This document shows positions 1-12,765 of a DNA stretch of 64,000 bases, piece by piece. Both the position numbers and the translations under genes were made by a program. Numbering within the stretch: position 1 is the stretch's first letter; the number at the start of each line of letters is the position of its first letter. The DNA comes from Natronolimnobius sp. AArcel1 (GTDB taxonomy: Archaea; Halobacteriota; Halobacteria; Halobacteriales; Natrialbaceae), in the NCBI RefSeq assembly GCF_011043775.1, contig NZ_JAAKXY010000001.1, positions 62,001-126,000 on the forward strand, in the 5' to 3' direction. The notes below the pieces were generated by a model. The model saw only the letters and a program-made list of their open reading frames with translations. It made no database searches and had not been told where the DNA came from.

Positions 1-640
1 GGATGATGTTATCGACGATTGGCACCTCGGCAACCTGTGGCGAGCGCGAGAGCGGGTTCAGGTCGATTACGAGTTCTGTCTTGCCCATTGCCTCGAGTGC
101 CTCGGCACGGTCGCCGTCCTCGAGTGGCACGAGCACCACATCAGCCGTGTAAATGCCGTCTTCGTCGACCTTTGCGCGCTGGTGGTCGAGGTTCGGGATC
201 CTTGCGTCGGCCTCGAGTCCCTTGACGTCCTCGGCACCGTGCTCTCGAAGATGGTCGGCGATGGCCGCGATACGCTCGTCAGTCCGGTTAAAGAGGTTGA
301 TCTCGAGGGCTGCGTCGACGGCGTCGGCCAGGGCGACCATCTCGCCGGGGACGAGGGCGGCGACGTTGCCGTTGATCGAGAGCACGGGGTGGTCAGCACG
401 CAGGAGATGAGCCGCTGCGGCACGTTCTGCGGCATCGGCGCTTGGAATCGTCTCCTCGCCCAGCAGGTAATCGAAGGCGCTGCCCCGGCCTTCGGCGTGC
501 ATCCCCTGGAGGTGCGTGATCCCCTTCTCGACGCCCGTCTCGATCCGATGGCGCGTGAGCAGATCCTGATAGCGCGGGTGGTCTTCGGGAATCTCCTCCT
601 CGTGTGCCACGTCGGCCGGAACGGTCTCGTCCTCGTTCAC
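1..640 (-). CDS. 4-phosphopantoate--beta-alanine ligase (partial, C terminus missing)
   Basis: Archaeal phosphopantothenate synthetase (DUF137 family). It joins 4-phosphopantoate to beta-alanine with ATP, giving 4'-phosphopantothenate in cytosolic CoA synthesis. Reading leftward from a GTG at 640, the N terminus runs VNEDETVPADVAHEEEIPED. It is followed by the family-like segments LLTRHRIETGVEKGI and GRGSAFDYLLGEE, and the visible end reads DLNPLSRSPQVADVPIVDN. The reading frame leaves the window at base 1, about 213 codons in. No ATG lies near the conserved N terminus, so the GTG is the likely start. Its pathway partner, pantoate kinase, lies at 9241-10068. Confidence 0.85.
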   Translation of the reverse strand, partial: MNEDETVPADVAHEEEIPEDHPRYQDLLTRHRIETGVEKGITHLQGMHAEGRGSAFDYLLGEETIPSADAAERAAAAHLLRADHPVLSINGNVAALVPGEMVALADAVDAALEINLFNRTDERIAAIADHLREHGAEDVKGLEADARIPNLDHQRAKVDEDGIYTADVVLVPLEDGDRAEALEAMGKTELVIDLNPLSRSPQVAEVPIVDNII

Positions 641-847: not shown

Positions 848-2011
848 ATGACATCTGTCCGCATGGAGAATGTTAGCAAATACTTCGATGCGGGAAACAC
901 CGTTGCGAACTATCAGCTAAACCTCGAGGTCGAAGACGGCGAGTTTCTCGTCTTTCTCGGCCCGTCCGGCTGTGGGAAAACCACGGCGCTCAGGCTCATC
1001 GCAGGCCTCGAGCAGCCCTCGGAGGGAGCGATTTACTTCGGCGACGAACGCGTCGATGGGCGCTCCTCGAGTGATCGTAACGTCGCGATGGTGTTCCAGA
1101 ACTACGCGCTGTACCCGCATATGACGGTCGCAGAAAACATCGGCTATCCGCTGAAAGTCCGCGGGATGACGCCCGACGACCGTGATACGAAGGTCGAAGA
1201 GGTAACTGAGTTGCTCCACATTGAAGGCCAAGTCGAGAAGAAACCGGGTGCGCTGTCAGGTGGCCAGCGCCAGCGGGTTGCACTCGCCCGCGCAATCGTT
1301 CGCGAACCGACCGTCTTCTTGCTCGACGAGCCGCTGTCGAATCTCGACGCCAAACTCCGCCAGGAGATGCGAGTCGAACTCAAACGCCTGCAGAACGAAC
1401 TCGAGATCACGACGGTCTACGTCACGCACAATCAGGAAGAGGCGATGAGCATGGCCGACAGGGTCGTCGTGATGAACCGGGGAACGATCCAGCAGATTGC
1501 CCCGCCGGGCGAACTGTACGAGCGCCCGCGGACGGCCTGGGTGGCCCGCTTTATCGGCTCGCCGCCGATGAATCTCTTTCAGGGACAGCGCCGAAACGGC
1601 TCGCTCGAGGTCGGGTCAGCGGGAGCCGTCGACCTGACTAGCATTGCACCGACAGCAGAGTCCAGCCCACAACCGGGTGAGGAAGCCGTCGTCGAAGCCG
1701 GCCAACCCGATGCAGGCGCGGCGGGCATGGTCACGGACGCATCTCAGGCGACGGGCGACCTCTCGCTCGGTGTTCGGCCGGAGGATCTAACGGTGACGAC
1801 GTCGCCGCCATCCACTGGTCACGCGCTCGAGGGCACCGTCGACACCATCGAACCCTTCGGCGAGTACGACCTGATCAACGTCACCGTCAACGACCAACTG
1901 GTCAACGCGAAAATGGCGTCTGCAACGGTCAGTCGCGGCGACAGGGTCTATCTGACGTTCGAGGACGACGATGCATACCTGTACGACGAAACCGGCGAAC
2001 TGGTCGGGTGA
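848..2011 (+). CDS. Sugar-type ABC transporter ATP-binding protein (MalK/UgpC class)
   Basis: Cytoplasmic ATPase that powers the importer formed with the next two genes. Walker A GPSGCGKT is at residues 38-45, signature LSGGQ at 136-140, Walker B VFLLDE at 156-161 and the H-loop His at 194. A C-terminal TOBE-type region (about 240-387) fits the MalK/UgpC class that serves sugars or glycerol phosphate. An acidic, Ala/Pro-rich insert at about 250-300 splits the TOBE region. The gene is 387 aa, normal for the class. It starts the operon, with 6 bp to the next gene. The substrate cannot be read from the sequence. Confidence 0.92.
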   Translation: MTSVRMENVSKYFDAGNTVANYQLNLEVEDGEFLVFLGPSGCGKTTALRLIAGLEQPSEGAIYFGDERVDGRSSSDRNVAMVFQNYALYPHMTVAENIGYPLKVRGMTPDDRDTKVEEVTELLHIEGQVEKKPGALSGGQRQRVALARAIVREPTVFLLDEPLSNLDAKLRQEMRVELKRLQNELEITTVYVTHNQEEAMSMADRVVVMNRGTIQQIAPPGELYERPRTAWVARFIGSPPMNLFQGQRRNGSLEVGSAGAVDLTSIAPTAESSPQPGEEAVVEAGQPDAGAAGMVTDASQATGDLSLGVRPEDLTVTTSPPSTGHALEGTVDTIEPFGEYDLINVTVNDQLVNAKMASATVSRGDRVYLTFEDDDAYLYDETGELVG

Positions 2012-2017
2012 GCCGAG

Positions 2018-2983
2018 ATGAGCTTCCGAGACCGACTCGAGGACCTCGAGTTCGATACCGACCGCGGTGAGGGGGCGATGCTGTCGTTCGACCGGGAGAA
2101 AGCGCTCGCGATAGCGGTGTTTCTGATTCCTGGGCTCACGCTGTTTGGTATCTTCTCTGTCGGGCCGATTGCCTACTCGGCGGTTGGCAGTTTCTACTCG
2201 TGGGAGACGTTCACGATGGGCGAGTTCGTCGGGTTGGACAACTGGATTGACTCACTCACTGACCCGCTCATCGTCCACTGGTCGAACATCCAAGAGCTAC
2301 GGTATCCGATGGGGGCGCTGACGCACAACCTGCTGTGGGTCGTGATTCACGTCCCGGCGAGTACCTTCCTCGGATTGGGTTTAGCACTGCTCTTTGCGGA
2401 CCTTCGCGGGCGACGAATCCTCCGCGCGATGGTGTTTGCGGGCTTTACCGTCCCGCCAATCGTCATCGGGCTGGTGTTGCTGTTTATCTACGACCCGCAG
2501 GCGGGGATCTTCAACGAGTTGCTTCGAGTGATCGGCCAGGAGCAGTGGGTTCGCAACTGGACGCAGTCGCCACAGGTCGCAATCTACGCTCTCATCGCGG
2601 GTGGCATCTGGGTCCACACCGGCTTCAGCATGCTGCTGTATAGCTCGTCGCTCTCAGCAATCGATCCCTCCCTGATTGAATCGGCTAAAGTCGACGGAGC
2701 CGGCCCGTGGCGGCGATTCCGCGATATCATCTGGCCGCTGGTCAAGCCGGTGACTGCCGTGGTCGTCATCATGGGCATCATCTGGGTGATGCGCATGTTC
2801 GACATCGTCTACGCCGCTGGCGGCGCGGCAGGCGGTCCGAATCACGCCTACTCGGTCCTCGGAATCGAGGTGTATCGCGCGGCCTTCCGGCCGGATATCG
2901 ACTACGGGATGGCGATGGTCGTTGCCCTGTTGCAACTGTTCATCGTTGCCCCGCTCGCGCTGTACATCGCACGAATGAGGTAA
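2018..2983 (+). CDS. ABC transporter permease, MalF/UgpA type
   Basis: Inner-membrane permease of the sugar-type importer, 321 aa with about six membrane segments. The first lies at about residues 28-50, after a short acidic cytoplasmic N terminus. The EAA loop that docks on the ATPase is recognisable near residues 213-235, as ESAKVDGAGPWRRFRDIIWP. It follows the ATPase by 6 bp and precedes the second permease by 2 bp, so the three genes are almost certainly one transcript. Confidence 0.9.
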   Translation: MSFRDRLEDLEFDTDRGEGAMLSFDREKALAIAVFLIPGLTLFGIFSVGPIAYSAVGSFYSWETFTMGEFVGLDNWIDSLTDPLIVHWSNIQELRYPMGALTHNLLWVVIHVPASTFLGLGLALLFADLRGRRILRAMVFAGFTVPPIVIGLVLLFIYDPQAGIFNELLRVIGQEQWVRNWTQSPQVAIYALIAGGIWVHTGFSMLLYSSSLSAIDPSLIESAKVDGAGPWRRFRDIIWPLVKPVTAVVVIMGIIWVMRMFDIVYAAGGAAGGPNHAYSVLGIEVYRAAFRPDIDYGMAMVVALLQLFIVAPLALYIARMR

Positions 2984-2985
2984 TC

Positions 2986-3957
2986 ATGAGTAACGACGAC
3001 CCACTCGAGCCGACTGGCACCGGCCCACACGCAGACACGGCAGGCACAGACCGCTATCTACGCGTCGAGGACATCCCCGAGACGGCTCCAGCAGCGGATC
3101 TCACCTGGCAGGAGCGACTCGCTGATGCCATCCCGACGAAACGACGCGCGCTCAAATACGTGCTCGCCATCGCGATTGCACTCCTCTGGATCGTTCCCTT
3201 TATCGGCTTACTCATGGCCTCGTTCCGGCCGCTCTCGGAGATCATCGGCGGCTGGTGGCACGTCGAGGGGATGACGCTCACGCTCGAGAACTACTACGGC
3301 GCGTGGAACTACAGCACGGCACCGATGAGTCAGGCGCTGCTCAACACGTTCATCGTGACGATTCCAGCCGTGTTAGTTGTCATGCTGCTCGGCGTAATGG
3401 CCGCCTATCCGTTCGCTCGCTTCGAGTTCCCGCTGAAGACGACGCTGTTCTTCCTGATCTTGCTCGTGATGGCCGCGCCGCCAGAACTCGTTGCGATGGG
3501 CAACTACAACGCCCTACGCGAGTTTGGCCTGTTCGACACCTACATGGGGCTGATCCTGATCCACATCGGCTGGGGCCTTGGCTGGGTCGTGCTGTTCTTG
3601 CGCAACTTCCTGCTTAGCATTCCGACAGAACTCGAGGAGGCTGCGCGAATCGACGGTGCCTCACGCTACCAGATTTTCCGGACGATCATCCTGCCGCTGT
3701 CGACGCCGGCGCTGGTGTCGGTGGCGGTGATCCAGTTCACGTGGGTCTGGAACGCCTTCTTCTTCCCGTTGGTGTTCATGCGCTCGCCCGAACTGTACCT
3801 CGCGCCGCAGGTGCTCCCGCTGATGAGCGGGCGCGTGCAGGTCGAGTGGGGGATGATCGCGGCCGGCTCGATTATGACGATGGCAGTGCCCGTGATCCTG
3901 TTCCTCGTGCTCCAGCGGTACTACACGCGCGGAATGGTGGCTGCCGTGGCGGATTGA
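2986..3957 (+). CDS. ABC transporter permease, MalG/UgpE type
   Basis: Second permease of the importer, 323 aa. The ATG at 2986 lies two bases after the previous stop. A hydrophilic tail of about 55 residues precedes the first membrane segment (YVLAIAIALLWIVPFIGLL). The EAA loop LEEAARIDGASRYQIFRTII is clear near residues 212-232. The C terminus ends shortly after a short RYYTRGMVAA tail, typical of MalG-like proteins. A T6 run follows at about 3966. No binding protein is encoded on this strand; the likely partner is the convergent gene at 4689-5951. Confidence 0.9.
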   Translation: MSNDDPLEPTGTGPHADTAGTDRYLRVEDIPETAPAADLTWQERLADAIPTKRRALKYVLAIAIALLWIVPFIGLLMASFRPLSEIIGGWWHVEGMTLTLENYYGAWNYSTAPMSQALLNTFIVTIPAVLVVMLLGVMAAYPFARFEFPLKTTLFFLILLVMAAPPELVAMGNYNALREFGLFDTYMGLILIHIGWGLGWVVLFLRNFLLSIPTELEEAARIDGASRYQIFRTIILPLSTPALVSVAVIQFTWVWNAFFFPLVFMRSPELYLAPQVLPLMSGRVQVEWGMIAAGSIMTMAVPVILFLVLQRYYTRGMVAAVAD

Positions 3958-4336
3958 CTTCGAACTTTTTTCGCCTCGGGTTCGCTCGCGGTGCTCACGG
4001 GTCGCTCACGCTCCCCGTTCACAATTCCGCGGCGCTACGCGCCGCGTACCGCTCGCTCACCTCTCGGCGCAAAACGTCCTCAGAAGATCTGATGGGCCCA
4101 CAAACGCGAAGGTTTGTGGACTTCGATGAAAAAGGCCACTCGCTCCCTGACTCACGGCGCGAAGCGCCGCGCTTTCGGTCGCTCGCGGGTGCAACGCTTG
4201 CGACTCGACTGCAGCGGTAACGCCTCTGCCTGGTGTCTTTCGCTCCAAGTCTGCTGACGTTACTGACGCTTGCTAACGCGATCAAATCCGGTTGACACCA
4301 TCATACATTGGGGATCCGTGGTGCTGAATACGCGCA
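3958..4336. other. Hairpin-rich noncoding spacer between convergent transcription units
   Basis: This 379-base stretch separates the permease from the oppositely oriented binding-protein operon. I find no credible gene. It holds a T6 run just after the permease stop and several perfect inverted repeats. These are a 7-bp stem with a 3-base loop (4029-4045), an 8-bp stem CCACAAAC/GTTTGTGG (4098-4119) and a 6-bp stem CGGCGC/GCGCCG (4155-4169). The motif GCTCGCTC/CGCTCGC recurs around them. Both flanking units end here, so the stems may act as terminators or RNA-stability elements. Confidence 0.6.
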
Positions 4337-4681
4337 CTATAGCGGCATGTACCCGGCTCGAGTCACGACCACAGCCACACCAATCACGAGCATGTTCGTG
4401 AGGAAAAACAGCCGTGAGGACATCCACGCGAACGAGAGCAAGACGGCGATGGGGAGCAACGCGATGAGCGCCGGCCAGGTGCCCCGAATCGCGAGCGTCG
4501 CGAAAAACGCCGTCGTGAACACGTACAGGAAGTCGACGGCGACGGCGTTGGCACTACTTCGGCGAATCTCCTGTCCGACGATGACGAGCGACTCGAGGAG
4601 GCCACGGCTGTCCCCGGTGGCTGCCTCCGGCCCCGTCTGCTCGCTGCCATCGCCGTCGCTGCCGTCGGTGGGTGTCGCCAC
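4337..4681 (-). CDS. Small membrane protein of unknown function
   Basis: Unrecognised 114-aa protein with a GTG start. An acidic, Gly/Ser-rich N terminus of about 25 residues precedes two or three membrane segments between about residues 45 and 110 (FLYVFTTAFFATLAI, ALIALLPIAVLLSFAW, NMLVIGVAVVVTRAGY). It begins 7 bases after the stop of the solute-binding protein and is probably co-transcribed with it. It could be an accessory or anchor subunit for the importer, but nothing in the sequence proves that. Confidence 0.65.
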   Translation of the reverse strand: MATPTDGSDGDGSEQTGPEAATGDSRGLLESLVIVGQEIRRSSANAVAVDFLYVFTTAFFATLAIRGTWPALIALLPIAVLLSFAWMSSRLFFLTNMLVIGVAVVVTRAGYMPL

Positions 4682-4688
4682 GGGTCAG

Positions 4689-5951
4689 TTAGGCCTCGTC
4701 GTCCTCGTCGACGGTTTCCTGTAACACGTCGTCAAGCGACTCGAGCATCGGCTCGATGTCCTGTTCGGGTTCCGCCCAGAGGCCGAGCAGTTGCGACCAG
4801 AACTCCGCCTGGAACGGATCACCGAGTGCGTCATCTAAGTCGGGCACGAGTTCAACGTCGTCTGCTTGCTCGGAGATGTCTTGCATGACCTCGAGGTCGA
4901 AGGCATCGTCGGGCACGTCGAGCGCGGTGGGGACGAACCCGCCGAGCTCGGTCCAGACTTCCTGCCCGTCGGGTGAGATGATCGCCTCGACGGCCTCAGT
5001 CGCGGCGTCAACGTCGGGTGCGTAGGCAGGCACAGTGAACCAGTTGATACTCGTCACCATCGCCTCCGAGCCAGGCAGCATGAAGTAGTCTAAGTCCTCC
5101 GGATCCTCAATCGCGCCAAACGCTGGCGTCCACGAGCCCATAAAGTACAGCGGAATCTCGTTTTCCCAGAAGAACTCGTACTGGACGCCAAAGTCCCGAA
5201 CCTCACTGAAGTACCCCTCCTCGAGCAGTTCCTGTAACTCCTCGAAGGCGGTGACGACGCGGTCGTCGGTAAACGAGGCATCGCCCTCGATGAGATCAAC
5301 CTGTAACTCGGCACCGTCTTCTTGCCGAAGGATGAACGCCTCTGCCACGTCGCTCAATGGCCAGCCGTCGCCGTTGCCCGATGCAAGGGGCGCTTCGACG
5401 CCATCGATGTCGTCGATCTCGTCGAGCAAGTCGAGAAACTCGTCGTAGTCCTCGGGTTCCTCGAGATCGTGTTCGTCGAAAAACGACGGGCGGTACCAGA
5501 AGCCGGGTTTGATGTCCCCGCCGAAGGGGGCTGCGTACACCTCGCCGTCGACTTCGACCGCGCTGTAGTCAGTCGTGTAGTCGTCTTCGTCCCAGAGGTC
5601 ACCCAGTGGCTCGAGGTGGCCTGCGGCTCCATCCAGTCGAACACGCCCTTCGGTTGGCAAGACGACAATATCGGCGGTTGCAACGCCGACTTCGTAGTCC
5701 ATGAGCGTCTCCGTCAGGAGTGTTTCAGTGTCTCGAGGCGCATACGAAATCTCGAGGCCGGTTTCATTTTCGGCATAGTCGACGACCTCGAGGAAGTCTT
5801 CTTCCTCGTCGTCGGTCCAGACCGCGGTCACGGTGATCGCTTCCTGTGCGCTCGCCCCGCCGACGCTTCCCAGACCTGTTAGTACGACGAGTCCGCCACC
5901 TGCTCCTCGAAGGACCGTTCGTCGGCCGACATGAGTGTTATTCTCGCCCAT
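4689..5951 (-). CDS. Extracellular solute-binding protein with Tat signal
   Basis: Family-1 type sugar-binding protein, 420 aa, highly acidic. The N terminus has a twin-arginine motif (GRRTVL) and a hydrophobic stretch ending GGASA before QE, a signal-peptidase I style site. I see no lipobox Cys, which most haloarchaeal ABC-binding proteins carry. The lobed binding protein follows (WTDDEEEDFLEVVDY, then YAAPFGGDIKPGFWYRPSFF and MGSWTPAFGAIEDPE). It faces the ATPase/permease operon tail to tail, yet is the only binding protein near it. The ligand is unknown. Confidence 0.88.
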   Translation of the reverse strand: MGENNTHVGRRTVLRGAGGGLVVLTGLGSVGGASAQEAITVTAVWTDDEEEDFLEVVDYAENETGLEISYAPRDTETLLTETLMDYEVGVATADIVVLPTEGRVRLDGAAGHLEPLGDLWDEDDYTTDYSAVEVDGEVYAAPFGGDIKPGFWYRPSFFDEHDLEEPEDYDEFLDLLDEIDDIDGVEAPLASGNGDGWPLSDVAEAFILRQEDGAELQVDLIEGDASFTDDRVVTAFEELQELLEEGYFSEVRDFGVQYEFFWENEIPLYFMGSWTPAFGAIEDPEDLDYFMLPGSEAMVTSINWFTVPAYAPDVDAATEAVEAIISPDGQEVWTELGGFVPTALDVPDDAFDLEVMQDISEQADDVELVPDLDDALGDPFQAEFWSQLLGLWAEPEQDIEPMLESLDDVLQETVDEDDEA

Positions 5952-6107
5952 ATCAGCCGTATGCCGATCACATCCTTAATGGTTTCACACATGATTCTGT
6001 ATGTACAGTTACGTGTACTGTCAGTATCGATTCACACGTTTACAGGAAGCTGTGTTGAGTGCCGTCTATCCACTATAACTCAAAAAGAAGATAGCTGACG
6101 TCTTGCC

Positions 6108-9026
6108 TTACTCAGTGAAGGTGATCCAGCCGTCCGGCGCGTGGCTCTTGACGTCGTTCATTGCCTCGCGAGCGTCCGTTCGGCTCTCGTAGGTCTGCGT
6201 ACTTTCGGCCATCGTCGAGCCGTACTCATCGATGAGTTGCCAGACCCAGCCATCCTCGGCCGTATGCAACTCGAAGGAGACGCTATCGATCTCGAGGATG
6301 CTCGCGGAGTCGATCAGTTCACGGACGTTCTCGAGTGCCTCGCGGGCTCGGTCGTTCGACTCGTACGACTCTGTGCCGGTTGCGACCGCGCGGCCATCAG
6401 CATCGAGCAAGCGCCACTGCCAGCGGTCGTCCTCGTCGGAAACGAGTTCGAACGACGCCACGTCGAAGTCGACACGGCCGGCCATCGGCGCGAGTTGGCG
6501 GACCTCCTCGACAACCGTATAGAGGTCGTCTTTGGTCGCCTCGGTGTCAGCCGAGCCAGCGACAACCTCGCGGTCAGCAGTGATGAGATTCCAGCGCCAG
6601 CCATCCTCGGTGTCACCACCCTGCTCGAGTTGGACGACAGTGTCTTCAATTGTGAAGATCGGTGCCGATTCCGCGTGGTCAGTCAACGCTGCGACGCGTT
6701 CGCGAGCGTCTTCACGCGTGTCGTAGGAGACGCTCGAGTCGGCGATTTCCTCGCGGTCGCGGTCGAGGACGCGCCAGTGCCAGCCACTGTTTTCGTAGAG
6801 CTGGGCGGTTACGTCGCCAATCGTACAGCCACGTGCCGTTGCTGCAGCCTTCTTGATCTCCGGAACTCGCTCGGTGAGTTCGTCTCGAGTTGGATGTGGT
6901 TCGTCGTCGACGGCAACGGTCTGTCCCGACGGCAAGACGAATCGCCAGTGCCAGTCCTCTGCCGCAGAAAGCTGGAAGATGGCGTCGTCCATCGTCCGTA
7001 CATCGGACTCAAGGTGCTCGAGCAGTCGGTTCATCGCGTCTCGCGCGGCGCTGCGAGTTGGATGGGTTGTCGGGTCTTCGGCGACGAGCTTTCCGCCCTC
7101 GTCGATGAGCCGCCATCCCCACTCGTCGTCATCGTTGACGAACAGTTCGAACGCGGCGGTTTCGATCTCGAGCAGTTCGGCGTCGGGTGCCTGCTCTTTA
7201 AGCGTCATCATGGCCTCGGCGGCCTCGCCGCGGCTCGTGTGCTCTTCACCGCTGTCTGCGAGGACGTTGCCATCCTCGTCGATCAGCCGCCAGCGCCACT
7301 CACTGTCGTCGGCTTCGTAGACCTGAAACGCTGCGTTTTCGAACTCGATGAGATCCGCTTCGCGAGCCTGCTCGCGCATGCGCTGGATCGCATCTTTTGC
7401 CGTCTCCGTGCCCATGTGTCGCTCGTTGCTCGCTGCGATGATGTCTCGTTCTTCGGTGACGAGACGCCACTGCCACGGCGTCTGTGGCTCCATTTCGTCC
7501 TCGTTGTGCTCGAGGGTGACGCCACCGTCGGTCGTCGCTGTCGACGTATCGGCCGTCGCTGGGAGATCATCGTCTGGCGTCATCCCGTCACCGAGTGACA
7601 TCTCTCCGGCAGGGTAGAGTTCGTACTCTGCGCCGTCGATTTCGACGACATCCGCGTCGGTTGCGTGCTCGGCGAATTTGTCGGTTTCCTCGCTTGCAAT
7701 CGCGTGGTTCGCGTGGCCGTCCGGCGAGCGGGCAACGATACGTTCGGCACCGTCGATGAGTCGCCACTGCCACTCTTCACCGGATTGATAGCGTTCGTAC
7801 GTGGGTTCGCCAGCGACCGTTACGGGTGCCGACCCGAGGTCTGGCAGGAGCGTTTCAGCGGCTTCCTCAGCCTGACGGCGAGCATCGTAGGTCGCTGTCG
7901 CGGTCGCAACGACGCTGTCGGTGTCGTCGACAAATCGCCACGTCCATCCCTCATCTCGCTCGTACAGTTCGACGCCGAGGTGTTCGATATCGAGCACTCG
8001 AGCCTGTTCGAACCGTTCGGCGAACGATCGGGCAGCCTCCTCAGCACCGGCTTGGTCCGCGTGGCTCTCGTCGCTGGTTGCCAACACAGTGTGGTCGTCA
8101 TCAACCAGTTGCCAGTACCAGCGGTCGCGCTCTTCGGTGTAGGTGAACGCCGCGCCTTCGATTTCGATGACGTCTGCGTCTGGGCCGCGATCTTTCAGGA
8201 AGCTCACGGACTCTTCTGCACCATCGCGCTCGGCGAACTCGCCGCTGCAGGCACCGACGACACTCCCGTCATCGCGTGCAAGCGTCCACTGCCAGGTCCC
8301 ATCTCGGCCTTCGTATAGCCGGAACGCCGAGGTCGTCAACTCCATCAATCCCGCAGAACTGATCTGGGCTTTAACGCGCTCGATTCCTTCGCGCGCTTCC
8401 GGTCGCGTGACCGCACTCCCATCGCTCGTCGCCAGCGCCTCCCGGTGAAGCACGTTCCACTTCCAGTCACCGTTCTCGTCTCGGAACACCGCAAACTGGG
8501 CGTCCTCGAGTGCGTTCCCCGTCAAAATTGGTGGGTCATCGGTCGTTCCTTCCTCTTCGACGAACATCCCTTTCTGGCCGGTAAGGACGGGAACAAGTGC
8601 CATTACACCCGCAATAATCGCGACCCCGGCCGTGTAGACAACGATCACTTCCACGTCAAGCCCCTGACCCAGGTGTCGCCAATCGTGTGGGTACACGGAC
8701 GCGAACCAGCCGACGCCGCCGAGTGCTACGAGAAGACCGACGAAACTCGCCTGTATCCCGCGTTTTCGAACCGGCAGCATCAACCCGATGCCGAACAGGC
8801 AAATCGCCAGGCTTGTCGCTGCGGCGGTGCCCGAAATTCTGATAATCGTCTCCTCAGTGACGCCGCCCGCGTAGCCGATAACAAATGTGATCAGCGCCGC
8901 GGCGGCAATTGCATACCCCAAAATAAACAACCAGTACCCGTACACATCCTTCCCCGAATCCGGTTCTCCGACGTAGTGTTCGTACAGTCGGTAGAGCCGG
9001 CGATTAATTTCGCTCGTGAATGACAT
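6108..9026 (-). CDS. Membrane protein with 13 tandem DUF1508 repeats
   Basis: About 972 aa. The N-terminal ~165 residues carry four or five membrane segments (LFILGYAIAAAALITF, ATSLAICLFGIGLMLPV, FVGLLVALGGVGWF, IVVYTAGVAIIAGVMAL). The rest is thirteen units of about 55-60 residues, each with a W-x-W core such as WQWRLID or WRWRLID, then an Ala-rich helix and a closing E-I/D-F strand. This matches the YegP-like DUF1508 fold, normally one or two copies per protein. Unit six has an acidic insert. The start at 9026 is preferred over ATGs at 9044 and 9077, because a TATA-like element at 9059-9066 would place transcription near 9035. Function unknown. Confidence 0.85.
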   Translation of the reverse strand: MSFTSEINRRLYRLYEHYVGEPDSGKDVYGYWLFILGYAIAAAALITFVIGYAGGVTEETIIRISGTAAATSLAICLFGIGLMLPVRKRGIQASFVGLLVALGGVGWFASVYPHDWRHLGQGLDVEVIVVYTAGVAIIAGVMALVPVLTGQKGMFVEEEGTTDDPPILTGNALEDAQFAVFRDENGDWKWNVLHREALATSDGSAVTRPEAREGIERVKAQISSAGLMELTTSAFRLYEGRDGTWQWTLARDDGSVVGACSGEFAERDGAEESVSFLKDRGPDADVIEIEGAAFTYTEERDRWYWQLVDDDHTVLATSDESHADQAGAEEAARSFAERFEQARVLDIEHLGVELYERDEGWTWRFVDDTDSVVATATATYDARRQAEEAAETLLPDLGSAPVTVAGEPTYERYQSGEEWQWRLIDGAERIVARSPDGHANHAIASEETDKFAEHATDADVVEIDGAEYELYPAGEMSLGDGMTPDDDLPATADTSTATTDGGVTLEHNEDEMEPQTPWQWRLVTEERDIIAASNERHMGTETAKDAIQRMREQAREADLIEFENAAFQVYEADDSEWRWRLIDEDGNVLADSGEEHTSRGEAAEAMMTLKEQAPDAELLEIETAAFELFVNDDDEWGWRLIDEGGKLVAEDPTTHPTRSAARDAMNRLLEHLESDVRTMDDAIFQLSAAEDWHWRFVLPSGQTVAVDDEPHPTRDELTERVPEIKKAAATARGCTIGDVTAQLYENSGWHWRVLDRDREEIADSSVSYDTREDARERVAALTDHAESAPIFTIEDTVVQLEQGGDTEDGWRWNLITADREVVAGSADTEATKDDLYTVVEEVRQLAPMAGRVDFDVASFELVSDEDDRWQWRLLDADGRAVATGTESYESNDRAREALENVRELIDSASILEIDSVSFELHTAEDGWVWQLIDEYGSTMAESTQTYESRTDAREAMNDVKSHAPDGWITFTE

Positions 9027-9058
9027 TCGTAAATTCGAGTGCATAACTCGAACGTAAT

Positions 9059-9066
9059 ATGATAAA
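9059..9066 (-). promoter_or_regulatory. TATA-like promoter of the DUF1508-repeat gene
   Basis: TTTATCAT on the minus strand lies about 33-40 bases before the ATG at 9026, which gives a short leader. It argues against the two longer in-frame starts. Confidence 0.5.
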
Positions 9067-9240
9067 GGTTCGGCCAAGCGTTTGCTAAATTATGTGTATC
9101 GATAGATGTATTCGCCGGTTGCTACCCTGTGAACTACCGTAATCACACGACGGGACTGGGATCCAATCTGAACAGGTCTACAAAAGAGGAGGCTGGAATC
9201 GGGCGTTTAGGACCCTATATGGCCTGGTTTCTGTCGATTG

Positions 9241-10068
9241 TTACTGCAACATGGCTCCAGCGGGATGCGTCGCACAGACGTTCGGGTCGTAGCCTGCATC
9301 TGAGAGTCCAGTCCCCAGCGCGAACACCGTCTCGCCGAGCATCGCCATCGACGCGTGCCCGTTGACATCCGTAACATCTCCGATCGTTCTGGCAACCTGC
9401 TCAGTCACTAATTCAGCCTCCCGCGCGAATAGTCGGGATGCATACATCAACGACAGCAGCGTCGGCTCTTTGACCACTCGAGACAGCGCTTCTTTGCCGG
9501 CAGCAGTCAACTGCTCTGTGTCGCCCGAAAGCACGTCGGCCGTCGAAAGTTCGCCGAAGGTAACGTACTCGACGCGGGCGCGAGCCGGAATCGAATCCAA
9601 TACGTTCTCGTGAGGGCCGCCAGGCTCGAGGCGGATCGGAATGCCGCCGTGAGCCTGGGCGACGACATCGCCCAGACCGGTCCCAGCCTGTACCTCCGCG
9701 CCGTGTGCAATCGTCACGAGTTCGTTCGTCGAGAGGGTGCGCTCGAATACCCGGTTCGTCGCGAGTGCGGTACCGAGCGCCATCGCCCCCGACACGCCGA
9801 ATCCTGCCCCGAGCGGCAGGTCTGACTCCGCTTCGACGTGGGCCGTCGCCTCGAGCGTCTCGAGGACGGTCTGGACGGGTTCGATCTCGAGTTCCTCACC
9901 GTCGAGAACAATCGTCGTTTCTGCGGCCGGTTCAACCGTCACGGTAACGCCGTCGGTGAGTGTGAGTCCGGCTCCTCGAGAGCCCGCTTTCGTCGGATCG
10001 TCGGCCGGATGGGCGCTAAAAAAGCCCGTAATGTGGCCAGGAACGAACGCAGTCGCCTCATCGCGCAT
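9241..10068 (-). CDS. Pantoate kinase (GHMP kinase family)
   Basis: Archaeal pantoate kinase: ATP-dependent phosphorylation of pantoate to 4-phosphopantoate, the step before the ligase at 1-640. It is 275 aa. The N terminus AFVPGHITGFFSAHPADDP and the Gly/Ala-rich ATP loop LPLGAGFGVSGAMALGTALA (near residues 95-114) mark the GHMP fold. The C terminus holds the usual METVFALGTGL-like segment (MLGETVFALGTGL). A GTTATACC element near 10092-10099 fits a leaderless start at 10068. In Archaea this pair replaces pantothenate synthetase and pantothenate kinase. Confidence 0.9.
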   Translation of the reverse strand: MRDEATAFVPGHITGFFSAHPADDPTKAGSRGAGLTLTDGVTVTVEPAAETTIVLDGEELEIEPVQTVLETLEATAHVEAESDLPLGAGFGVSGAMALGTALATNRVFERTLSTNELVTIAHGAEVQAGTGLGDVVAQAHGGIPIRLEPGGPHENVLDSIPARARVEYVTFGELSTADVLSGDTEQLTAAGKEALSRVVKEPTLLSLMYASRLFAREAELVTEQVARTIGDVTDVNGHASMAMLGETVFALGTGLSDAGYDPNVCATHPAGAMLQ

Positions 10069-10656: not shown

Positions 10657-12660
10657 TCAGCGCTGGCGTTCGATCACGTCGGGGATCTCGGTCAACCCCA
10701 TCTCGCCGCGCTGGGAAGCGGACTCGTGCCAGCCAGCAAGCGTCGCCTCGACACCGTCTGCCTCTGCAATGAGTCTGTCGGTTGTGATCTGTTCTTCCCG
10801 TCGAAGCGCCTCGCGAGCGACCCGTCCGGCGAGATGGCGAACATCTCGAATGCTAAAGCCCGCCGTCGCCTCGGCCACTGTCTCGAGGTCGATATCTGCC
10901 GCCAAAAAACCGTCCGGCAGCGACTTGGCGAGAATCGCCGCTCGTGTCGTCCCGTCTGGCGGTGGGACCTCGATGCGCTCGTCGAACGTCCCCGCATGGA
11001 GCACGTCGATGTTGACGCCATCCACGCTGCGCGTCGTTGCGACGACGAGCACATCGTCGCCGAGTGTCGGTAACAGCGTCTCGAGGCGCGTCGTAACTCG
11101 TCTGGTCGCTCTCGAACCGCCTGAGGTAGGAGCGAGTTCGTCGAGGTCATCCAGCATGAGCACACACGGGGCGAGCGACCGTGCATCTTCGATGATCTCG
11201 GCTGCGCGGTCTGCCGGCTCGTCGACGCCCTCCTGATGGAATCGGGCCGTACTCAGTTCGACGATTGGCCGATCCAGTTCTGCCGCGAGCGACTGTGCAA
11301 GCGACGTTTTCCCTGCATCGGGCGGGCCGTACAGCAGAACGCCATCGACCGCAGGCACCTCGTACCGTTCGTAGCCGTCGGGATTTCGAACCGGCTCGAG
11401 AACCCGCCGCTCAAGTTCGGCCCCGATATCCTCCATCCCGGGTAAGGAATCGAGCGCAACCGGCTCATCGGCAGACGACCGGCCCAGTTCTTCGCCGAAG
11501 TGATCTTCGTAGCGATCCAGCCAGCCCGCGATGCTGGTGTCAATCTCTGAGACGGCCTGCTGGAGGTGGCCCTGTTCCACCGGCGATTCGTCGCCGATTG
11601 CGTGTCTGATTGCGACATCCGCGACGAGCGTAACATCGCTCGAGGCGTAGCCCGCAGTCGCCTCGGCAATTGCCTCGAGACTTACCTCCTCGGAAACCGG
11701 CGCATCGGCGAGTTCGAGTCGGAGCATCTCGAGACGTGCCCGTCGGTCCGGCGGCGGGATCTCGATGCGCTCGTCGAACCGGCCAGATCGCAAGATGGCG
11801 TCGTCAACATCGTCGACGTAGTTCGTCGCCGCGAAGACGACAATGTCGGCGTCGGTTTGGGACTCGAGTTCGGTCAGAAGTTGGTTGACCATCTGCTGTT
11901 CGCTGTTTGCCATCCGCCCCGAACGGTCGCCCGCGATGGCGTCGATTTCGTCGATAAAGACGAGACAGGGCTCGTTCTCGCGGGCTGTCTCGAACAGTGT
12001 CGCGACGTTGTCTGCGGCCTCGCCGATGTACTTGCTCGTGATATCCGAGGGCGTCACCTCGAGGTAGTTGTAGTCCGTTTCAGCCGCGAGCGCGCTCGCG
12101 ACGAACGTCTTCCCACAGCCCGGTGGGCCATGAAAGAGCACGCCGTTGACCGCCCCAATCCCGTAGTAGTCATAGACGTCCTCGCGCGTCAATGGGTCGA
12201 TCACCCGGTCGTGAAGTGTCTCTTTTAACTCCATCATTCCGCCGACGTCCGAGAAGTCGTGGCCCGGTGGCTCTGTCTCGAGGTCGTCGCCCGCGAGTGC
12301 GGTTCCAGTTTCGTCCTCGCTGTCGTCTCGAGCGTGCGACGAGTCGCCATCGCCCGGTGCTCCCTGTATCTGGCGCGTTTGTGTCCCCCCGTCCGTGTGC
12401 CGGCCGACGAACTGCCAGGCCAGCGTCAGCGCTGGCGGCGCGAACACGAGTGCGGCGTCGCCGGTCGCGACGAACCCGCCGACGCCAACGACGTACGCAG
12501 CACCCAGAAATAGCCGATCCGCCTGTGCGGCGACCGCCCACGAGACCGTTCGGAGCGCGACCGCGACCGTTCCGGCCATCAGCACGACTGCAAGAAATGC
12601 GGTCGAGCCGGGAACGAGCGCACTCGCGTCGGTGAGCAGCGCCGGTGTCAAATCATTCAT
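10657..12660 (-). CDS. Membrane-anchored tandem AAA+ ATPase (Cdc48-like) with degenerate D2
   Basis: 667 aa. Two or three membrane segments lie in residues 20-85, then an acidic linker and two AAA modules. D1 is intact: GPPGCGKT at 178-185, Walker B FIDEID with D237/E238, and SGRFDERIEIP with the finger Arg. D2 is altered: GPPDAGKT at 445-452, Walker B MLDDLDEL with Asp where the catalytic Glu belongs, and HAGTFDERIEVP with no Arg before TFD. No Cdc48 N-domain is present. A membrane protein unfoldase or remodeller is plausible. The ATG at 12660 was chosen over an upstream TTG. Confidence 0.85.
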   Translation of the reverse strand: MNDLTPALLTDASALVPGSTAFLAVVLMAGTVAVALRTVSWAVAAQADRLFLGAAYVVGVGGFVATGDAALVFAPPALTLAWQFVGRHTDGGTQTRQIQGAPGDGDSSHARDDSEDETGTALAGDDLETEPPGHDFSDVGGMMELKETLHDRVIDPLTREDVYDYYGIGAVNGVLFHGPPGCGKTFVASALAAETDYNYLEVTPSDITSKYIGEAADNVATLFETARENEPCLVFIDEIDAIAGDRSGRMANSEQQMVNQLLTELESQTDADIVVFAATNYVDDVDDAILRSGRFDERIEIPPPDRRARLEMLRLELADAPVSEEVSLEAIAEATAGYASSDVTLVADVAIRHAIGDESPVEQGHLQQAVSEIDTSIAGWLDRYEDHFGEELGRSSADEPVALDSLPGMEDIGAELERRVLEPVRNPDGYERYEVPAVDGVLLYGPPDAGKTSLAQSLAAELDRPIVELSTARFHQEGVDEPADRAAEIIEDARSLAPCVLMLDDLDELAPTSGGSRATRRVTTRLETLLPTLGDDVLVVATTRSVDGVNIDVLHAGTFDERIEVPPPDGTTRAAILAKSLPDGFLAADIDLETVAEATAGFSIRDVRHLAGRVAREALRREEQITTDRLIAEADGVEATLAGWHESASQRGEMGLTEIPDVIERQR

Positions 12661-12765
12661 TACTGATACGTGAAACGAATTTACCAAAATAGTTCCGGTG
12701 ATCGGTGCGATAATTGATCGGTATCGACGGGGACAGAAAGGATCTGGAGCGTCGTCGTCGTCCGC

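Follow-up and report, generated by a model that had tools for sequence, protein, structure and literature searches.

What is a membrane protein with thirteen copies of one small domain built for? The question is raised by a gene in the window (the whole stretch of 64,000 nucleotides that was analysed) that encodes 972 residues, a DUF7139 membrane anchor followed by 13 DUF1508 units (Table 1). Structures of DUF1508/YegP proteins have been solved, and we know of no role for them. Pfam recognised no catalytic domain in this reading frame. A first-pass annotation, made from the sequence, had described an acidic rod of diverged units behind four or five membrane segments and had considered it a new architecture. 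We analysed the make-up of the protein, the constancy of its units in relatives and its neighbourhood, and weighed the explanations that these allow.

Table 1. Features of the locus, in window positions. Residues refer to the 972-residue protein; percentages are conservation in the family alignment.
Feature	Positions	Strand	Residues	Remarks
Phosphopantothenate synthetase (PPS)	1..640	minus		runs off window start; conserved downstream neighbour; family assigned via homologue P0003
13-unit gene	6108..9026	minus	972 aa	DUF7139 membrane anchor and 13 DUF1508 units; ORF reading, Pfam, NCBIfam, unit HMM
Unit 13	6111..6305	minus	908-972	90%
Unit 12	6306..6479	minus	850-907	
Unit 11	6480..6665	minus	788-849	least conserved, along with unit 6
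Unit 10	6666..6833	minus	732-787	
Unit 9	6834..7004	minus	675-731	
Unit 8	7005..7181	minus	616-674	89%
Unit 7	7182..7358	minus	557-615	central; most conserved (93%); nearest to single-domain HVO_2922
Unit 6	7359..7652	minus	459-556	variable low-confidence loop insert at ~474-513 (7488-7607)
Unit 5	7653..7826	minus	401-458	
Unit 4	7827..8000	minus	343-400	
Unit 3	8001..8177	minus	284-342	
Unit 2	8178..8351	minus	226-283	89%
Unit 1	8352..8522	minus	169-225	80%
DUF7139 (PF23600) four-helix anchor	8568..8999	minus	10-153	N and C termini predicted cytoplasmic; Pfam, TM prediction, K+R counts, AlphaFold2
Pantoate kinase (PoK; GHMP family), presumed	9241..10068	minus		conserved upstream neighbour; Pfam GHMP, synteny

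A membrane anchor and thirteen diverged units

The reading frame starts with ATG, and an alternative TTG lies 17 codons upstream, at 9077. We prefer the ATG because, in our reading of the sequence, a TATA-like element (CCTTTATCAT, ~9058-9068) sits between the two candidate starts. Pfam matched the protein to DUF1508 (PF07411, gathering score 22) with E=3.5e-69 and 228.9 bits, nine stretches passing alone, and a genome scan placed eight units singly above the cut-off. The domain identity proposed at first pass, for which an HMM search had been named as the check, is thus borne out. The NCBIfam model for HVO_2922 found 12 stretches and an iterated unit HMM found all 13 units. The W-x-W cores lie at residues 188, 245, 303, 361, 419, 518, 577, 636, 692, 749, 810, 869 and 927, a period of ~58 residues, and most units end in the closing acidic strand (e.g. 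ADLIEFE, AELLEIE); number, core and strand hence agree with the earlier description. The units are also as diverged as it had said, with 15-42% identity between them. Unit 6 is the sole much longer one, owing to a variable loop of ~40 residues that is missing in family f7. Every unit has a net acidic charge (-3 to -18). This acidity, which had been singled out as a feature of the protein, is typical of haloarchaeal proteins and uninformative here.

Several further assignments were tried and rejected. The FtsQ/DivIB C-terminal domain (PF03799) reached a whole-protein E=6.9e-6 by the summing of weak stretches, none of which passes alone, and a SPOR match was likewise a sum of weak stretches. A viral origin was rejected, as there was no IMG/VR match to P0001; the PHROG matches are to families of unknown function, hit via the DUF1508 units. 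A role in anti-phage defence was set aside, PADLOC giving no match for the protein at E 0.1.

AlphaFold2 modelling of the full chain with 21 orthologues gave four transmembrane helices and a beta-beta-beta-alpha pattern that recurs along the 13 units and is clearest in units 3-5 and 7-13; the inter-domain layout of this model is not interpretable (pLDDT 51.8, pTM 0.24). A four-unit model from a repeat-shifted alignment has well-folded units and undefined packing between them (pTM 0.33). Because inter-domain confidence is low in both models, a rod, a globule and a superhelix are indistinguishable. A modelled unit superposes in Foldseek on 6q2z (HVO_2922) and on 3bid (NMB1088; ~1 A).

The anchor matches DUF7139 (PF23600, gathering score 30) at E=8.2e-38 and 129.8 bits. 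Of the four or five membrane segments counted earlier, TM prediction and AlphaFold2 uphold four and not the fifth. Across 63 long-form reading frames, which include some duplicate loci, the mean number of K+R is 1.6 at the N-terminus, 0.9 in loop1, 2.7 in loop2, 1.0 in loop3 and 1.6 at the C-terminus, a bias that is clear for loop2 and small for the tail. On the positive-inside rule, these counts place both termini inside, which suggests that the repeat chain is in the cytoplasm. The DUF7139 paralogues of the same genome either end in a Cys-rich tail (DUF7140) or have their gene next to that of an actin homologue, and their tails are consistent with a cytosolic placement of the chain. Inspection by eye found no cleavable signal or TAT motif in the protein. 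The suggestion that the units face one side only is therefore supported, the predicted side being the cytoplasm.

Constancy of number and order in relatives

The first-pass annotation had proposed counting units in orthologues to see if their number varies. It does not: every intact long-form orthologue scored by HMM has exactly 13 units, in families f1, f3, f7 and f10 of the Halobacteria, and variable copy number was rejected. The loci scored comprise 20 from named Natrialbaceae genomes (Natronorubrum, Natrialba, Natrinema, Halobiforma and others) and those of the Halobacteria sample; independent genomes are somewhat fewer than loci, and some named genomes may duplicate sampled ones. The same genome encodes a paralogue (L059 8199-11156, C3) of 985 residues that also has 13 units and a membrane part reduced to one or two segments. 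Among five relatives of this paralogue, three have 13 units and two have 12, one of these with an additional weak unit. The paralogue's neighbour, on the opposite strand, is a sugar transferase gene of exopolysaccharide type.

The units also keep their places. We compared each unit with position profiles built from Natrialbaceae units, for which chance expectation is 1/13. In 16 of the 17 proteins tested, 9-13 of the 13 units chose the HMM of their own position, the remaining protein, from f3, reaching 6/13. By group, same-position matches were 12/13 in f10, 11-13/13 in f7, 6-11/13 in f3 and 12-13/13 in the paralogues. Unit spacing in relatives differs solely through loop insertions. The simplest reading of these matches, made from unit positions rather than from a tree, is that the full array predates the split of the families, its number and order having been kept since. 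With 13 units across four families, an old paralogue and positional orthology, the sequence comparisons indicate that the expansion is old, as had been proposed, and its copy number frozen. A constraint on number only, such as that on a spacer or an acidic brush, is disfavoured because the units preserve their positional identity.

Conservation is distributed very unevenly along the chain. Within the family, identity is highest in unit 7, around 90% in units 2, 8 and 13, and ~49% in units 6 and 11. Unit 7 is the exact middle of the chain, and its identity still amounts to 60-78% when other families and paralogues are compared. Because of this unevenness, specific contact sites or surfaces are suggested rather than a uniform spacer, and the chain may thus bear particular contact surfaces.

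DUF7139 occurs in 143 of the 145 Halobacteria genomes, elsewhere with other tails, and weakly in some families outside the class. The long form is present in 36 of the 145 by our count, and its absence from the other 109 makes the gene dispensable at class level. One of the 36, G025, has a long form that breaks into two overlapping frames around units 5/6 (L110 5696-8738), by frameshift or sequencing error. Other Halobacteria have a second architecture, in which DUF7139 precedes five DUF1508 units spaced 1 + 2 + 2 (L100-L109, L116). Nearly all of these units are nearest to unit 7 of the long form. In the genomes sampled from the rest of the phylum, DUF1508 was seen only in small proteins with one or two units.

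Genomic neighbourhood and competing explanations

The gene upstream is a GHMP-family kinase that we take to be pantoate kinase, given its pairing with PPS; the PPS homologue P0003 matches PF02006 at E=4.8e-74. The order PoK, 13-unit gene, PPS is found in most gene-carrying f1 genomes and in members of f3 (G058, G086), f7 (G031, G127) and f10 (G135), with all three genes on the same strand wherever it is kept. PPS often starts just ~45-180 bp downstream of the 13-unit gene, making co-transcription plausible. In genomes without the gene, the distance between PoK and PPS is commonly 44-191 bp, though several f3 and f4 genomes have them far apart. In the window, sugar ABC transporter genes (ATPase, two permeases and solute-binding protein, 848-5951) lie between the 13-unit gene and PPS; the PoK-PPS distance is similar in a genome of the same genus (G062). 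Further along, at 10657-12687 on the minus strand, is a Cdc48-like double AAA+ ATPase with hydrophobic N-terminal segments, possibly membrane-anchored. In G130, a remnant between PoK and PPS (L118 ~5760-6620) fuses membrane helices 1 and 2 to units 12 and 13 and has an in-frame TAG. The gene is in the course of being lost there, this decayed remnant occupying the same place.

The DUF7139 anchor has a second conserved setting. Elsewhere in the same genome (C6, L061), a DUF7139 gene (6529-7431) is directly upstream of an actin homologue (7530-8552) of the volactin/salactin type (Pfam Volactin PF25216, E=7.9e-138). Of the 48 pairs with coordinates that we checked, 41 have the DUF7139 gene immediately upstream of actin, across families f1, f3, f4, f5, f7 and f9; the arrangement was not found in f4 genus g20. 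Synteny is termed poor in the salactin paper (PMC10746226). We regard this DUF7139 protein as a candidate membrane partner of archaeal actin.

Our leading explanation, which we hold tentatively and at a little less than even confidence, is that the 13-unit protein serves as a fixed-length scaffold in the cytoplasm, tethered to the membrane and bearing docking faces in a set order. The anchor, the 13 units, their frozen number, their positional orthology and the high conservation of unit 7 are directly supported; the cytoplasmic side and the scaffolding are what we infer. The four DUF7139 helices would span the cell membrane, keeping both termini on the inner side, and from them the 13 YegP-type beta-beta-beta-alpha domains would reach as a chain into the cytoplasm. 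The distinct conserved identity of each position would provide these ordered faces, or a single composite surface with unit 7 at its centre, on which partner proteins would be held at defined points close to the membrane. A bolder version, which we consider improbable, makes the protein a device with a precise count of units: a molecular ruler, or a superstructure that is either closed or paired (6 + 1 + 6 around unit 7), setting a distance or building a fixed platform beneath the haloarchaeal membrane, within a wider family of DUF7139 platforms that also serves archaeal actin.

Other explanations draw on the neighbourhood and on the anchor. The chain might organise CoA synthesis by holding or regulating the two enzymes, PoK and PPS, at the membrane, as the shared strand and order in f1, f3, f7 and f10 and the plausible co-transcription would have it. 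Yet the many genomes with adjacent PoK and PPS and no 13-unit gene indicate that CoA synthesis can do without it. The gene lies elsewhere in three f3 genomes (G050, G089, G137), the paralogue is unlinked to PoK and PPS, the ABC gene set intervenes in the window, and the TATA-like box right before the ATG suggests a promoter of its own. Widespread as it is, the linkage is no proof that the protein takes part in CoA synthesis, and we judge such a role unlikely. About equally doubtful is a cytoskeletal or cell-shape element, with DUF7139 as the membrane base of actin-linked structures and the 13-unit protein as a member with its own structural arm. The DUF7139-actin pairs speak for it, and most long-form genomes also carry a volactin/salactin-type actin, partly by phylogeny; but the DUF7139 gene adjoining actin is a different paralogue, the 13-unit gene is not beside actin in the loci examined, and G058 has the long form without an actin match at the cut-off.

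We give still less credence to an extracellular rod, whose repeats would act at the surface, e.g. in adhesion or in contacts with the S-layer. Cell surfaces often display small beta domains in long tandem arrays, and the orientation of the protein is a prediction, but the charge bias, the lack of a visible export signal and the cytosolic-type tails of DUF7139 paralogues all go against it, as do the single-domain DUF1508 relatives, which are small, soluble and without signal peptides. A stress-response binder, in which the array multiplies the ligand or nucleic-acid binding of single DUF1508 proteins such as HVO_2922 and YegP, seems to us just as improbable. Unit 7 is the best match to HVO_2922, which is listed among perchlorate-induced genes (PMC12175516), and in 57 cases a YegP homologue comes after capK-capS genes that are under DNA-damage control (PMC13373217). 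Against this, the acidity of all units suits nucleic acid poorly, and copies of one identical site would have stayed similar, which these units have not. We know of no ligand for any DUF1508 protein.

These results suggest that the 13-unit protein is better seen as a fixed-length scaffold than as a flexible repeat tail. Thirteen distinct and constant positions across haloarchaeal families suggest that DUF1508 can be selected for position-specific contacts, and such a chain would make the function of the domain testable in a tractable archaeon. The shared anchor suggests a membrane partner of archaeal actin that has gone unnoticed, a gap in haloarchaeal cell biology.

Comparison with known systems

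Both component domains, DUF7139 and DUF1508, are already catalogued, and our literature search found no paper describing long membrane-anchored DUF1508 arrays and none mentioning DUF7139. The architecture that had been thought new is so in its combination, as far as we found described, and not in its parts. Members with solved structures (6q2z, 3bid, 2k8e, 2k49) have one or two units. HVO_2922 of Haloferax volcanii (NF041908, PDB 6q2z) shares the DUF1508 domain; unlike the 13-unit protein, it is a soluble single domain of 60 residues without a membrane part. Its best match is unit 7 (sequence E=1.6e-9); the profile match has E=3.7e-11, and Foldseek aligned a modelled unit to it with TM 0.76 over the 60 residues. 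The protein falls outside the HVO_2922 equivalog, its best single unit scoring 55.6 bits against a cut-off of 90; the 274.9 bits of the whole protein arise solely by summing 12 stretches. E. coli YegP and Shewanella SO3888 (2k8e, 2k49), which are among the top Foldseek matches to the four-unit model, also have DUF1508 units in tandem. They have two units only, are soluble and are more closely spaced than the 57-59 residues of the 13-unit protein. The packing between units, as modelled at low confidence (pTM 0.33), scores TM 0.42 against 2k8e and differs from the two-unit packing there.

Several DUF1508-like repeats in one long chain are also seen in All3315, a baseplate protein of the Anabaena contractile injection system (PDB 7b5h chain AD; PMC8894136). 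The resemblance is weak (sequence E=4e-4, with no single stretch passing; fold E=4e-3 in Foldseek), and the baseplate paper does not mention YegP (PMC8894136). All3315 belongs to a phage-tail-like machine, unlike the 13-unit protein, near whose locus we noticed no injection-system genes. Tandem DUF1508-like repeats may thus also occur in another large assembly, which we take as a lead rather than as proof of homology.

The haloarchaeal proteins with DUF7139 and five DUF1508 units have the same anchor and the same domain, but fewer units and no conserved neighbours that we could find. The volactin-adjoining DUF7139 protein and the DUF7139-DUF7140 protein, encoded in the same genome as the 13-unit protein, have the same four-helix anchor without DUF1508, and carry in its place tails of ~140-200 residues, one of them with a Cys-rich motif.
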